Of a DNA stretch of 54,997 nt, positions 10,683 through 15,409 are shown piece by piece; the first letter of the stretch is position 1; the number at the start of each line of letters is the position of its first letter. Source of the stretch: Acidobacteriota bacterium (GTDB lineage Bacteria > Acidobacteriota > Terriglobia > Acidiferrales > UBA7541); the NCBI GenBank assembly GCA_003224145.1, contig QHYN01000202.1:1-54997 (forward strand). The letters run 5' to 3'. The notes beneath the pieces are model-generated. The model saw nothing but the letters and a program-made list of their open reading frames with translations, was not told where the DNA came from and ran no database searches. The position numbers and the translations under genes are program-made.

Positions 10683-11597
10683 ATGGCGAAGCGAAATGGG
10701 ATGTCTCAAGAAACGGTGACACTCAACAATCGGGCCGGGGAACTAGCTCGAGATGAAGCTCCCTCGGAGCTTCTTCGAGAACTTGTTGCGCACCTCCGGC
10801 AGAATCGTACCCAGCTGCGCGAGGAATGGGTGGCGCGAATCTCTGAGGCGCGCCTGCTCACCGCGATGACCAAAGAAGAGATCTTCGCAGAAGCAACCTC
10901 GGTATACGACAGCTACGTGGAAGCCCTAGAAACTGAGACGTTTGAAGCACTACAGGCCTACGCGCGAAACCTTTCGGAACGCATTATCCCGCGGGGTGTC
11001 GAGACTCATGAAGTCCTCGGCATCGTTCTACTGCTGCGCGACGTCCTGGCACGTTCTCTCTTCGCAAAGTACCAGACCGACTTCAAGAAATTGAACCGCA
11101 TCCTGGATGCCTATGAGCCAGCTGCAAACCGTATCCAAAGCACGGTGGCTGTCGGTTTCGTGCAAGAACGTGAGCGCGTCATTCGCCAGCAGCAGGAAGC
11201 GATTCGCGAACTATCGACTCCGGTCCTGCAGGTCCGCGAACGGTTGCTCATTCTGCCGATCATTGGCGTAATCGATCCGCAGCGCTCCCGGCAGTTGACC
11301 GAACAGCTCCTCCGCGGCATCCGTACCAACCGCGCGAAAGTCGTGGTGATCGATATCACGGGTGTCGCGGCAATGGACGCGACGGTCGCAAACCACTTAG
11401 TGCAAACGGTCGAAGCATCCCGGCTGCTCGGCGCAAATGTAATCGTTACCGGCCTTTCACCGGAGATTGCGCAAACACTGGTCACTATCGGCATCGACCT
11501 GGGCAAAATGAACACCGTGGGCGACCTGCAAGGGGGCATCGAGCAGGCGGAACGACTGTTGGGGTACAAAGTGGTGGCCCTCGCGGAGCCTAGCTAA
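10683..11597 (+). CDS. rsbR: Stressosome scaffold/co-antagonist RsbR (RsbRD-like N-domain + STAS)
   Basis: RsbR proteins build the stressosome shell with RsbS and sense signals through a variable N-terminal domain. Residues about 25-165 here are an all-helical, non-haem-globin-looking sensor of the RsbRD type (LVAHLRQNRTQLREEWVARI). A linker helix follows (RERVIRQQQEAIRELSTPVLQV), then a STAS domain from about 180. The STAS part aligns closely with B. subtilis RsbRA through IDITGV, GANVIVTGLSPEIAQTL and IGIDL. The two phosphorylatable threonines of RsbRA are not conserved in register: IDT is IDP (Pro199), and VVDT is AMDA with Thr234 one residue later. It is the first gene of a six-gene coupled run. 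Confidence 0.88.
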   Translation: MAKRNGMSQETVTLNNRAGELARDEAPSELLRELVAHLRQNRTQLREEWVARISEARLLTAMTKEEIFAEATSVYDSYVEALETETFEALQAYARNLSERIIPRGVETHEVLGIVLLLRDVLARSLFAKYQTDFKKLNRILDAYEPAANRIQSTVAVGFVQERERVIRQQQEAIRELSTPVLQVRERLLILPIIGVIDPQRSRQLTEQLLRGIRTNRAKVVVIDITGVAAMDATVANHLVQTVEASRLLGANVIVTGLSPEIAQTLVTIGIDLGKMNTVGDLQGGIEQAERLLGYKVVALAEPS

Positions 11598-11618: not shown

Positions 11619-11981
11619 GTGGAAGTTCCCATTCTCAAACAGGGAGAGGTTCTGATCGCGACGTTTCAGGCGGCCCTTTCGGACGCAGACCTGAACCAAC
11701 TGCGTAGCGGCTTGGTGCAGCAGGTCGTCAGGTTTCGCTCGCGCGGCGTTATCGTGGACGTTACAGCGATGGACGTGTTGGACTCGTTTGCATCACGGAC
11801 GCTCAGAGAGATCACCCACATGATCCGGTTACGAGGTGCAGAAACCGTGATCGTAGGAATTCAGCCAGAAGTGGCATTCGCGATGGTGCAGCTTGGATTG
11901 ACGCTGGAAGGTGTTGCCACGGCGTTAGACCTGGAAGAAGGCCTGGCCTACTTGAACCAGAAGTTCAAGAAAACCAACTGA
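11619..11981 (+). CDS. rsbS: Stressosome STAS protein RsbS
   Basis: The GTG start at 11619 follows ACGGAGGACGG. The 120-residue protein is a single STAS domain without a sensor. VDVTAMDVLDSFASR places the phosphorylatable serine at Ser56, matching Ser59 in the DSF motif of B. subtilis RsbS. VIVGIQPEVAFAMVQLGL and TALDLEEGL also match. RsbS holds RsbT in the unstressed complex, and phosphorylation by RsbT weakens the hold. It lies 21 bases after rsbR and 12 before rsbT, the standard R-S-T order. Confidence 0.92.
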   Translation: MEVPILKQGEVLIATFQAALSDADLNQLRSGLVQQVVRFRSRGVIVDVTAMDVLDSFASRTLREITHMIRLRGAETVIVGIQPEVAFAMVQLGLTLEGVATALDLEEGLAYLNQKFKKTN

Positions 11982-11993
11982 AAGAGAGCGACA

Positions 11994-12398
11994 GTGCCGG
12001 ATGGAGAAACACGGGTGCCCATAAACTCGGACCAAGACATCGTCGTTGCCCGCCAAAAAGGGCGGGCTCTAGCGACAGAGCTGGGGTTTCCTCCTGGGGA
12101 TGCCACCTTGATCGCCACAGCCATCTCAGAATTAGCGCGCAACATCGTGTCGTATGCGCGTAAGGGGCACATCACACTGCAAAAAATCGATGGATTGAAC
12201 CGCGAAGGCCTTTCGGTTATTGCCTCCGATCAGGGTCCCGGAATAACAGACATTCGACAAGCTATGCGAGACGGCTTCTCCACTTCGGGAAGTCTCGGAA
12301 TGGGGTTGCCTGGAGTCCGACGCCTGATGGACGAATTTGAAATCAAGTCCCAACCCGGCCGGGGGACGACCGTGGTGGTGAAGAAATGGAAGCAATAA
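11994..12398 (+). CDS. rsbT: Switch kinase RsbT
   Basis: This is a 134-residue GHKL-type serine/threonine kinase with a GTG start. The N box is TAISELARN (42-50, with Glu46 and Asn50), the G1 box DQGPG (79-83), and the lid/G2 region FSTSGSLGMGLPGVRRLMDEF, almost identical in pattern to B. subtilis RsbT. In characterised systems RsbT phosphorylates RsbR and RsbS and, once free, binds the N-terminal domain of the RsbU phosphatase. No RsbU phosphatase, RsbV, RsbW or sigma-B gene is visible in the window. The end of the gene overlaps the next start by 13 bases. Confidence 0.93.
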   Translation: MPDGETRVPINSDQDIVVARQKGRALATELGFPPGDATLIATAISELARNIVSYARKGHITLQKIDGLNREGLSVIASDQGPGITDIRQAMRDGFSTSGSLGMGLPGVRRLMDEFEIKSQPGRGTTVVVKKWKQ

Positions 12399-13003
12399 AA
12401 GTGCCGCTCGTCGAATACGGTGTTGCCAAATTCTCCCTTCCTGGCCAGGACGAGTCTGGCGATCAGCATCTGGTTTGCTGCAACCAGAACGCGATTCTGA
12501 TCGCCGCGGTTGATGGGATTGGTCACGGAGCAGAAGCGGCCAACGCCGCGAAGGCAGCAACTTCGATTCTTAAGAGCGGGGTGGATCAACCGGTCATTTC
12601 TCTGATGGAGCAGTGCCACGAGAAACTTCGCCCGACCCGGGGTGTTGTCATGAGCCTTGCCTCCATTGACCCAATGCACGGGATGATGACTTGGCTGGGT
12701 ATAGGGAATGTACAAGGGGCGTTGATGCGCAATGGCGCTAGGAAAGGAAGCGTGCAGGATACGCTACTGCTTCGTGCCGGTGTCGTGGGCTCCCAGCTGC
12801 CACCACTCCAGGCGGCTGTGCTTCCGATCGCACGGGGAGACACGCTGTATTTTGTTACGGATGGGGTGCGAAACGAATTTGCCTTGAGCCTGTCCGCGCT
12901 GGAGAACCCGCAAAGAGCCGCCGACAGAATTCTCGAGCAGTATCAGAGCGGAGCGGACGACGCACTGGTTTTGGTGGTGAGGCTAGCGGGAATTAATCGA
13001 TGA
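12386..13003 (+). CDS. rsbX: RsbX-like PP2C/SpoIIE-type phosphatase
   Basis: The 205-residue single-domain phosphatase has GDQ (Asp26), the metal-binding DGIGHG (43-48), TRGVVMSLASID, a GNVQGAL strand, FVTDGVRNEF and the C-terminal DDALVLVV. This is the SpoIIE/RsbX layout with no sensor or RsbT-binding domain. RsbX resets stressosomes by dephosphorylating RsbS and RsbR, and the position directly after rsbT with a 13-base overlap fits that role. Its last codon overlaps the kinase start (ATGA). Naming it rsbX rests on size, context and motifs; it could act on another partner. Confidence 0.8.
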   Translation: MEAIKVPLVEYGVAKFSLPGQDESGDQHLVCCNQNAILIAAVDGIGHGAEAANAAKAATSILKSGVDQPVISLMEQCHEKLRPTRGVVMSLASIDPMHGMMTWLGIGNVQGALMRNGARKGSVQDTLLLRAGVVGSQLPPLQAAVLPIARGDTLYFVTDGVRNEFALSLSALENPQRAADRILEQYQSGADDALVLVVRLAGINR

Positions 13004-13980
13004 AAATGGCCACCGAACGCAAAACGAAAGCAGAACCGAGGTTTGAAGACGAGTACGCCTGTCAGTTGCGCGAATACGCGGCAGGCAGTGGCGAAGCCGC
13101 GCTGGGCAAAGCATATGAGTTGGGGCGTCGAGCTCTCACTGAGGGCAAGAGCCTGATGGAGATCGCCTCCTTTCATCATGAGGCTCTGCAAGGATTGATA
13201 CAGGGGCAGCAGGATGATAAACGCCGAGAAGAGTTGCTCCAGGCGAGCAGCGATTTTCTTGCAGAATGCTTATCTCCCTACGAAATGGCCCAGCGGGGAT
13301 TCCAGGATGCGGTGAAGGCCCTGCGGCAACTCAACGAAACCCTTGAGGAGGAGATCAAGCGCATTGCGTACGCCGTGCACGACGAGGCCGGGCAACTCTT
13401 AGTCGCCGTGCACCTTGCGCTAGCCGAAGTCGCACGGGAATTGCCCAAGCCTCAGAAAGATCAGGTCGGACAGATCGAAGGGTTGCTAAACCAAGTTGAG
13501 AAGCATTTGCGAAGGTATTCCCACGAACTTCGACCGACAATCCTGGATGATCTCGGCTGGCTTCCAGCGATCCGTTTTCTAGCGGAGGGCGTTTCGAAAC
13601 GGGCGGATCTGCCAATCCACATCGAGGCAACCTTCTCTGAGCGGTTGCCGGGTACTAACGAGACGACGCTCTATCGAATCGTCCAAGAGGCGCTGACGAA
13701 TGCCGTTAAGCATGCGAAGCCCAGCAATATCTGGGTCCGGGCGTGGAAAGAAAATTTCGCTTTGTGTTGTTCCATCCGGGACGACGGCGCCGGTTTCGAC
13801 TCTCGACTTCTCCGAATCCCGTCAGGCCGGAAGGGGCTAGGCTTAATTGCTATGCAGGAGAGAGTTAGCGCAATCGGTGGAACACTACAAATCGAATCCT
13901 GCCCCGGACGAGGAACTGAAATTTCTATTCGACTTCCATTGGAGGACGAAAATGCCAATTCGCGTCTTGCTCGCGGATGA
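13000..13980 (+). CDS. NarL-family (HisKA_3) histidine kinase with an RsbU_N-like N-domain
   Basis: This is a 326-residue soluble kinase. Residues about 15-105 resemble the RsbT-binding N-terminal domain of RsbU: the pattern IASFHHEAL aligns with IISIHRKVL, and SSDFLAECLSPYEMAQ with SLDFLIEVMIGYGMAYQ, as I recall B. subtilis RsbU. The HisKA_3 helix follows (EEIKRIAYAVHDEAGQLL, phosphoacceptor His127 in HDEAGQ). A HATPase domain comes next, with the N box YRIVQEALTNAVKHA (225-239), DDGAG (261-265) and GLGL (279-282). The start overlaps rsbX (ATGA) and the end overlaps the response regulator by 29 bases. No membrane helix or PAS domain is present, so RsbT is the most likely input; this is inference. 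Confidence 0.85.
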   Translation: MKMATERKTKAEPRFEDEYACQLREYAAGSGEAALGKAYELGRRALTEGKSLMEIASFHHEALQGLIQGQQDDKRREELLQASSDFLAECLSPYEMAQRGFQDAVKALRQLNETLEEEIKRIAYAVHDEAGQLLVAVHLALAEVARELPKPQKDQVGQIEGLLNQVEKHLRRYSHELRPTILDDLGWLPAIRFLAEGVSKRADLPIHIEATFSERLPGTNETTLYRIVQEALTNAVKHAKPSNIWVRAWKENFALCCSIRDDGAGFDSRLLRIPSGRKGLGLIAMQERVSAIGGTLQIESCPGRGTEISIRLPLEDENANSRLARG

Positions 13981-14584
13981 CCATATCCTGGTGCGCCAGG
14001 CCCTGAAGTCATTGCTCGAGCGGGAGAAGCTCCAAGTTATTGCGGAAGCATCCGATGGGCAAGAAGTAGTCGCGCTGGCCGAAGCGCACCATCCGGATAT
14101 CGCCGTCATCGACATCAGCATGCCGATACTAAACGGCATTGATGCAGCTCGTGAACTGGGCCGTTCGTGCCCAAAAACGAAGACGATACTGCTGACACAG
14201 CATGAAGAGGATCAATACATCCGCGAGGCGTTGGAGGCTGGAGTGAAAGGATACGTCCTGAAGAACCAGGTGGCCAGCGACCTCGTGCATGCCATCCAGC
14301 AGGTTTCACGGGGCCAATTCTATTTGAGTCCGGGGGTTTCTCGAGCAGTAATGGAGGCGTACCGCACCAAGTCAGATAGCCCTGCCGATCCCTTGACCGC
14401 GCGCGAGCGCCAAGTGTTGCAGTTGATTGCTGAAGGAAAGTCCACGAGGGATGCTGCTTCGCTCCTTGGCATCAGCGTGAAAACGGCCGAATCTCACCGC
14501 ATGAGACTCATGCAGAAGCTGGATATTCATGAAACAGCAAGCCTAGTGCGCTACGCCGTCCGCCGCGGGTTGGTGCAGCCTTGA
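13952..14584 (+). CDS. NarL/FixJ-type response regulator 1
   Basis: The ATG at 13952 has GGAGG just upstream and begins the typical receiver MPIRVLLADDH; the frame runs open farther back inside the kinase. The receiver (1-120) has the acidic pair Asp9/Asp10, phosphoacceptor Asp54 in VIDISMP, the LLTQHEEDQY switch strand and Lys in GYVLK. The LuxR-type HTH (about 145-210) reads LTARERQVLQLIAEGKSTRDAA and VKTAESHRMRLMQKL. It overlaps the kinase gene by 29 bases, so it is the direct cognate partner of that kinase. Confidence 0.92.
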   Translation: MPIRVLLADDHILVRQALKSLLEREKLQVIAEASDGQEVVALAEAHHPDIAVIDISMPILNGIDAARELGRSCPKTKTILLTQHEEDQYIREALEAGVKGYVLKNQVASDLVHAIQQVSRGQFYLSPGVSRAVMEAYRTKSDSPADPLTARERQVLQLIAEGKSTRDAASLLGISVKTAESHRMRLMQKLDIHETASLVRYAVRRGLVQP

Positions 14585-14776: not shown

Positions 14777-15409
14777 ATGCCCATACGAGTTTTCCTCGCC
14801 GACGATCATGCCCTGATCCGCCAGGGGCTGAAGACATTGCTGGAAAGACAAGGATTTCAAGTGGTCGGAGAGGCATCGGACGGACAAGAAACGCTGCGGT
14901 CGGCGGAACGGATCCAACCTGATGTCGCGATCGTAGATATCAGCATGCCGTTCATGAACGGCCTGGATGCCGCTCGCGAATTGAAGAAGTCAGCGCCGAA
15001 CATTAGGACCATAATCCTCACGCAACATGAGGAAGATCAGTATGTCACGGAAGCTCTCCGTGCCGGCGCGAAAGGATTCGTGTTGAAAAGCCAGGCAGCC
15101 GACGACCTTGTCCATGCCATACGAGAGGTTTGCCGCGGGTCAGTTTATGTAAGTCCATGCATTCCACGAACGGCTGTCGAGGCATATCTTTCCAAGAGGT
15201 ATGCCTCGGCCGACCCCCTGTCAGGAAGGGAGCGCCAGGTTCTGCAACTGGTCGGTGAAGGAAACTCCACCAAGGACATCGCCAGCCAACTGGGGATCAG
15301 CGTGAAGACTGCGGAATCCCACAGAACCAGGCTCATGAAGAAGCTCGATATCCATGAAACTGCAAGCCTGGTTCGCTACGCCATTCGGCGCGGTTTGATC
15401 GAGGCGTAA
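14777..15409 (+). CDS. NarL/FixJ-type response regulator 2 (paralogue of regulator 1)
   Basis: The product has 210 residues, the same length as the preceding regulator and roughly 70 percent identical by eye. The receiver has Asp9/Asp10, Asp54 in VDISMP, LTQHEEDQY and FVLK. The LuxR-type HTH has LSGRERQVLQLVGEGNSTKDIA and VKTAESHRTRLMKKL. It is separated from regulator 1 by 192 bases, enough for its own promoter, so it may be a duplicated output with different timing. No second kinase is nearby, so it probably shares the RsbU_N-like kinase or takes phosphoryl groups from elsewhere. Confidence 0.9.
   Translation: MPIRVFLADDHALIRQGLKTLLERQGFQVVGEASDGQETLRSAERIQPDVAIVDISMPFMNGLDAARELKKSAPNIRTIILTQHEEDQYVTEALRAGAKGFVLKSQAADDLVHAIREVCRGSVYVSPCIPRTAVEAYLSKRYASADPLSGRERQVLQLVGEGNSTKDIASQLGISVKTAESHRTRLMKKLDIHETASLVRYAIRRGLIEA

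Follow-up and report, generated by a model that had tools for sequence, protein, structure and literature searches.

An Acidobacteriota RsbRSTX module in which RsbR lacks both canonical phosphothreonine positions and which may switch through the RsbS serine

The rsbRSTX locus

The window, by which the whole analysed stretch of 54,997 nucleotides is meant (contig QHYN01000202.1 of the Acidobacteriota assembly GCA_003224145.1), contains a gene for an RsbR with sensor and STAS domains and adjoining genes for an RsbS with its serine, an RsbT with its catalytic residues and an RsbX (Table 1). Known here from its genes, the locus is an RsbRSTX stressosome module of a widespread RsbR subfamily. RsbU_N is the domain of RsbU that binds RsbT. 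This domain was identified with Pfam at residues 18-97 of the histidine kinase encoded behind rsbX (E 4.6e-10), and the kinase is therefore the predicted target of RsbT. Two similar LuxR-type response regulator genes lie behind the one kinase; the second is a possible duplicate.

The AlphaFold model of the window RsbR had a mean pLDDT of 86.3 and a pTM of 0.55, with 7b0u as its top structural match. Weak matches of the model to AfGcHK globin sensors (E about 5e-3) presumably cover the N-terminus, and the Pfam score for RsbRD_N was barely below the cut-off (24.2 vs 24.3). His109, the sole histidine in the aligned segment 97-111, was kept in only 102 of the 125 subfamily rows described below, so haem binding by the window RsbR is not indicated.

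Table 1. Genes and sites of the rsbRSTX locus, in positions of the window
Feature	Position	Strand	Remarks
rsbR	10683..11597	+	304 aa; STAS by Pfam; helical N-terminal sensor, linker helix, STAS
RsbR parts (residues)			sensor, probably globin-like (about 27-130); linker helix (134-177); STAS domain (182-292)
RsbR Ser178-Thr179 codons	11214..11219	+	linker end; invariant in 125/125; candidate alternative phosphosite
RsbR Pro199 codon ccg	11277-11279	+	B. subtilis T171 / Listeria T175 position; residue 1 of helix in model
RsbR Ala233 codon gcg	11379-11381	+	T205 / T209 position; residue 1 of next helix in model
RsbR Thr234 codon acg	11382-11384	+	'shifted' threonine; helix residue 2 in model
RsbR Thr265 codon	11475..11477	+	Listeria T241 position; Thr in 123/125; candidate phosphosite
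rsbS, STAS-only antagonist	11619..11981	+	Pfam STAS
RsbS Ser56 codon tcg	11784-11786	+
rsbT, GHKL switch kinase	11994..12398	+	Pfam HATPase_c; residues E46, N50, D79
rsbX-like PP2C phosphatase	12386..13003	+	Pfam SpoIIE domain
Histidine kinase	13000..13980	+	N-terminal RsbU_N, HisKA_3 and HATPase_c (Pfam); predicted RsbT target
LuxR-type response regulator 1	13952..14584	+
LuxR-type response regulator 2	14777..15409	+

Sequences compared

RsbR was searched for in the family and phylum of the window, in genome_contigs, in 15 genomes behind those loci and in five other phyla or classes. The 240 loci obtained gave 233 RsbR open reading frames, of which 179 were distinct after trimming; one of the two rows named L170 is absent from the counts, and matches that did not cover both sites (e.g. 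L114-L118) were excluded from them. The subfamily set of 125 rows includes the window sequence itself, its own copy (L001) having been set aside, and 49 more distant RsbRs (<60% identity) formed the outgroup. Four rows with 62-74% STAS identity (L136, L137, L154 and L178) were placed outside the 125-row set as long or intermediate; their two sites read IDT/VDS, IDS/MNL, IDA/MTP and LDP/MDA, respectively. Named records among the 125 rows came from Gemmatimonadota, Acidobacteriota, bins labelled Pseudomonadota, Nitrospirota, Ignavibacteriota, Bacteroidota and Rokuibacteriota. Since the sampling was centred on the window RsbR (the best 80 of 488 in genome_contigs and at most 30 loci per search), the subfamily frequencies given below differ from frequencies among all RsbRs. 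Published work is cited by PMC number from excerpts of each paper.

Residues at the canonical phosphothreonine positions

The window RsbR reads I197-D198-P199 and M231-D232-A233-T234 where Listeria RsbR has IDT and VDT. The two STAS domains were aligned without gaps using phmmer, with P199 on T175 and A233 on T209; neither the T171 nor the T205 position of B. subtilis thus holds Ser or Thr, and the Listeria T241 position holds Thr265. The sequence of 6qcm was used as the unaltered Listeria RsbR, because PDB entries 9o3z, 9o3o, 9o5l and 9o4h, each with Ala or Glu at one of the T175/T209 positions, fit the point mutants described in a preprint (excerpt of PMC12154155). The initial annotation had given the sites as IDP with Pro199 and AMDA with Ala233, followed by Thr234, and had allowed that the two residues might be misaligned; the reading is exact by codons and by the gapless alignment, and misalignment was ruled out.

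In the AlphaFold model, helices start exactly at residues 199 and 233, with an aspartate before each. Proline is well tolerated at such a helix-start position, and, a helix beginning exactly at residue 199, Pro199 is placed where this holds.

Distribution among relatives

Pro199 was present in 122 of the 125 subfamily rows (Ser in two, Asp in one) and, in the sequences sampled, is a mark of the subfamily, with or without Ser233. Site 233 was divided almost evenly, with Ser or Thr in 64 rows (61 and 3, respectively); the remaining 61 rows had Ala (31), Val (24), Leu (2), Glu (2), Gly (1) or Asn (1). Both sites carried Ser/Thr in two rows (L129 and L135) and neither did in 61, whereas 45 of the 49 distant RsbRs had Ser/Thr at both and three (L119, L120 and L170) at neither. 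Judging by its sampled members, the window lineage has an aliphatic residue or Gly at the T205-type position. Losses at 233 that look independent were seen in L089, within a Gemmatimonadota group, and in L212, L225, L229 and L230, from the phylum of the Rokubacteria locus L091. At the T205 position, two rows from the Ignavibacteria/Bacteroidota search (L199 and L200) carry Glu (MDEK), which might be a fixed mimic of phosphorylation.

An isolated mutation of this copy was ruled out, the residues being common to relatives. The alignment of relatives that had been proposed as a check on the window residues therefore upholds them, and it adds what had gone unnoticed: Pro199 extends to the members with Ser233, site 233 has changed repeatedly, and Thr265 and Ser178/Thr179 are left. 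In the 64 members with Ser/Thr at 233, RsbR may still be phosphorylated.

Rates of change and selection

By entropy, columns 234 and 233 ranked first and second of the 108 STAS columns (median 0.07 bits), and they required 21 and 20 parsimony changes, respectively, against a STAS median of 1. When residues were scored as Ser/Thr or other, site 233 needed at least 8 changes; site 199, scored as Pro or other, needed 3. Support in the trees was modest, 65 of the 135 forks of the wider tree being unsupported.

Mean identity to the window was 88% for the N-terminus, 95% for the linker and 92% for the STAS domain of RsbR, vs 77% for RsbS and 62% for RsbT, a comparison that favours RsbR because the loci were picked by RsbR similarity. 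Less dependent on this choice is the comparison at four-fold synonymous sites, where nine relatives were 17-49% identical to the window while their RsbR proteins were 82-92% identical, which indicates strong purifying selection on RsbR. The 82-92% identity extends across phyla (e.g. L106, L199), and even the sensor domain has hardly changed, in contrast to the B. subtilis RsbR paralogues, whose sensors differ.

Lineage-specific decay, in which the system would be drifting and RsbR would no longer control RsbT, is hardly credible. The 20 parsimony steps at site 233 could be taken as decay, as could the absence of the gene from many relatives (at E <= 1e-30 it was matched in 31 of 89 family genomes) and the stop that interrupts one of these 31 matches (G015). 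Against this stand the contrast between protein and four-fold-site identity, the invariant active-site residues of RsbT and RsbS and the open rsbR frame of the window.

It is also very improbable that the complex contains, besides this RsbR, another one with normal threonines, in the manner of the B. subtilis paralogues. The window genome yielded one full-length RsbR, and 13 of the 15 relative genomes had a single match, the other two having two. The remaining STAS matches in the window genome were RsbS and two others, L004 and L003. By eye, L004 reads as an ordinary DSSG-type antagonist with ABC-transporter-like neighbours, and the genes next to L003, a fragment at a contig end, resemble those of L004. 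A paralogue could nevertheless be missing from an assembly of 359 contigs that is 95.4% complete, with the weak STAS match of L003 lying at a contig end, and a second RsbR-like protein is present in a few relatives.

RsbS, RsbT, RsbX and the output module

Ser56 of RsbS, which the initial annotation had read as kept, was present in each of the 122 rows that could be read; the two rows that complete the 124 are masked or cut. Residues E46, N50 and D79 of RsbT were each invariant in 117 of 117 rows. Among the 80 genome_contigs loci, RsbS was found in 79, RsbT in 76 and RsbX in 75, and the loci lacking one of them reach a contig end there. The acidic motifs of RsbX were kept in both site-233 groups (113 rows), and comparison of the RsbT, RsbS and RsbX consensus between these groups revealed no group-specific active-site change.

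The output module was compared in the 69 genome_contigs loci whose sequence runs on for 1.5 kb or more behind rsbX. In 41 of the 42 loci without Ser/Thr at 233 vs 15 of the 27 with it, rsbX was followed by a match to the histidine kinase of the window. Loci without the kinase match are mostly Gemmatimonadota, so the association tracks phylum, and a mechanistic tie of the loss at 233 to the output module was dropped. Other genes behind rsbX, which may be other outputs or just neighbours, were a sigma-54 activator gene in one Gemmatimonadota locus (L112:8262-9719, + strand) and, in L080, L086 and L089, genes for TPR proteins near rsbX.

In four genomes of the same genus (L114-L117; e.g. L115:3982-5187, - strand) the RsbR sensor and linker were found, by eye, fused to a histidine kinase. 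The fused part is 66-71% identical over RsbR residues 26-179 and a response regulator adjoins, a natural sensor swap. Because sensor and linker are here joined straight to a kinase, this sensor seems able to signal without an RsbR phosphosite. In the phylum of the Rokubacteria locus L091, L234 and 17 further matches have the RsbR N-terminal domain (31-60% identical) on open frames of 560-953 aa; L234:211-2115 (- strand), read by eye, continues behind the sensor with GAF-like and histidine-kinase parts.

Thr234 and other kept residues as phosphosites

The initial annotation had offered the shifted threonine as a route for RsbT regulation. Thr234 would then have replaced the lost Ser233 as the RsbT substrate, and RsbR would still be phosphorylated near the T205 position. 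Site 234 held Thr in 49 and Ser in 7 of the 125 rows, and these residues were concentrated where 233 had been lost: 51 of the 61 rows without Ser/Thr233 (45 Thr, 6 Ser) had Ser/Thr at 234, vs 5 of the 64 rows with it. A correlated-evolution model with dependence between the sites was preferred on the RsbR tree (LR 13.7, reached in 0 of 61 null simulations and 0 of 14 in a separate set) and on the RsbR+S+T tree (LR 11.3; 0 of 25 null simulations). On the RsbR tree the fitted rate of gain of Ser/Thr at 234 was about 14 times higher after loss at 233 (5.91 vs 0.43).

Such tests are liberal when events are few, however, and the unsupported forks of the wider tree weigh on them as well; an independent-pairs sign test of 233 vs 234 had just 4 supported pairs. 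Ten of the 61 rows without Ser/Thr at 233 have none at 199 or 234 either, so Thr234 is not required, and the five rows with Ser/Thr at both 233 and 234 imply that Thr234 does not need the loss at 233. In the model the helix opens with residue 233, and the side chain of 234, its second residue, should therefore point elsewhere. The coupling could equally reflect a helix-start preference. SpoIIAA and RsbV have Ser/Thr at +1, yet their S58A and S56A forms are not known to be phosphorylated.

The shifted-threonine proposal thus gains from the 51 rows and the model coupling, and loses by the 10 site-free rows and the scarcity of supported pairs. That the kinase target moved by one residue, loss of Ser233 having favoured Thr/Ser234 as a replacement, with members having neither using RsbS alone, is in our estimate rather unlikely. 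If true, the subfamily would range naturally from RsbRs with one site, through those with a shifted site, to those with none, and would include the two Glu233 rows, which are maybe fixed in a phosphorylated-like state.

Phosphorylation of RsbR at other kept residues, Thr265 or Ser178/Thr179 at the linker end, is judged unlikely. Thr265 was Thr in 123 of the 125 rows and Ser178/Thr179 were invariant in all 125, but most STAS columns are equally conserved (Thr265 ranks only 39th-40th most variable of 108, where the median entropy is 0.07 bits), which makes this invariance weak evidence. In the excerpts consulted, phosphate was found on T241 of recombinant L. innocua RsbR, and in L. monocytogenes the T241A change increases sigma-B activity without stress (PMC9237128, PMC8942246); T241 is proposed, however, to act via T209 (PMC9237128), which is missing in the window RsbR. 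Likewise, V. brasiliensis RsbR was phosphorylated in vitro at S178 and T182 (PMC4976288), whereas the V. vulnificus model has both Ser178 and Thr182 buried (PMC9237108).

A possible switch through RsbS alone

The explanation preferred here, to which we give a probability of roughly 0.57, is that phosphorylation has been removed from the RsbR arm, RsbT phosphorylating only RsbS and RsbR signalling conformationally. A sensor signal would travel along the linker helix and reach the STAS core as a change of conformation. RsbT would phosphorylate only Ser56 of RsbS and then leave the core, and the freed RsbT would bind RsbU_N of the downstream histidine kinase, which would drive one or both LuxR-type response regulators. 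RsbX would reset the system by dephosphorylating RsbS. With the T205-type brake lost, feedback under extreme stress should be gone, or its role should have passed to RsbX.

Regulation through RsbS alone had been one of two routes suggested from the window, and it appears to fit the relatives best, given Ser56 in 122 of 122 rows, the RsbT residues in 117 of 117 and RsbX at 75 of 80 loci. This pattern of retention plausibly fits an RsbS-serine switch.

Work on mutants, as excerpted, bears on this explanation from both sides. In B. subtilis before stress, T171 carries phosphate, which aids the phosphorylation of RsbS; T205 is phosphorylated once stress becomes extreme, and this restrains the response (PMC3944199). 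A B. subtilis strain with RsbRA as its only RsbR still signals when RsbRA-T171A is combined with RsbS-S59A (PMC3944199), and in Listeria acid induction is abolished by RsbS S56A but not prevented by T175A (PMC8942246); an RsbS serine as the main phosphosite is plausible on these grounds. RsbS phosphorylation is, however, not the sole route in B. subtilis, since S59A strains are still activated by strong ethanol (PMC3944199).

Loss of the RsbR sites also has a cost in these organisms. T171A lowered the B. subtilis response 10-12 fold or about 100 fold, depending on background (PMC3944199). Listeria T209A had constitutive sigma-B activity without stress (PMC8942246); according to the preprint excerpt, its core had an RsbR:RsbS ratio of 23:7, and T175A was stress-sensitive (PMC12154155). 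Attempts to establish plasmids expressing Listeria RsbR T175A T209A failed, the wild type included, and the authors took this as a sign of lethality or toxicity (PMC6614362). Given these defects, compensation elsewhere must be assumed for the present lineage; no compensating change for the lost RsbR sites was found in this analysis.

Comparison with known systems

Whether stressosome signalling needs RsbR phosphorylation is disputed (PMC3944199 vs priming models, as far as the excerpt goes). Nature seems to have carried out the mutagenesis in several phyla, with the priming site turned to Pro, the brake site changed repeatedly and the RsbS serine kept. The subfamily offers ready-made RsbRs with one, shifted or no canonical site, in a module whose predicted output is two-component and not sigma-B. 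A literature search, for which subscription papers were mostly outside reach, found no published account of this Pro199 RsbR subfamily and no biochemistry on it.

The engineered mutants of B. subtilis (T171A+S59A) and Listeria (T175A, T209A and the double mutant) are alike in being non-phosphorylatable at the same positions (excerpts of PMC3944199, PMC8942246, PMC12154155 and PMC6614362). The sequences described here differ from them as natural variants under selection in several phyla, with Pro or mostly aliphatic residues and, in two rows, Glu.

The V. brasiliensis stressosome provides a precedent for published phosphosites that are not all conserved. There, as excerpted, it is the RsbS site that is not conserved and RsbR is phosphorylated at the linker end, whereas the window keeps Ser56 of RsbS (PMC4976288). 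In the Gram-negative rsbRSTX modules of V. vulnificus and others, the genes likewise stand in the order R-S-T-X with signalling proteins behind them; RsbU_N in some of these proteins and two-component outputs among them are already described in the excerpted text (PMC9237108). The V. vulnificus RsbR has a globin sensor, the title of the same paper calling its stressosome an oxygen sensor, and it keeps S199 and T233 where the window has P199 and A233 (PMC9237108).

With the B. subtilis and Listeria stressosomes the window shares an RsbR of helical sensor, linker and STAS domain, a phospho-serine RsbS, a GHKL RsbT and an RsbX phosphatase. It differs from them in having an RsbR without both phosphothreonines (P199, A233), in the single RsbR that was found and in its predicted output, an RsbU_N histidine kinase with response regulators in place of the RsbU/V/W/sigma-B cascade.
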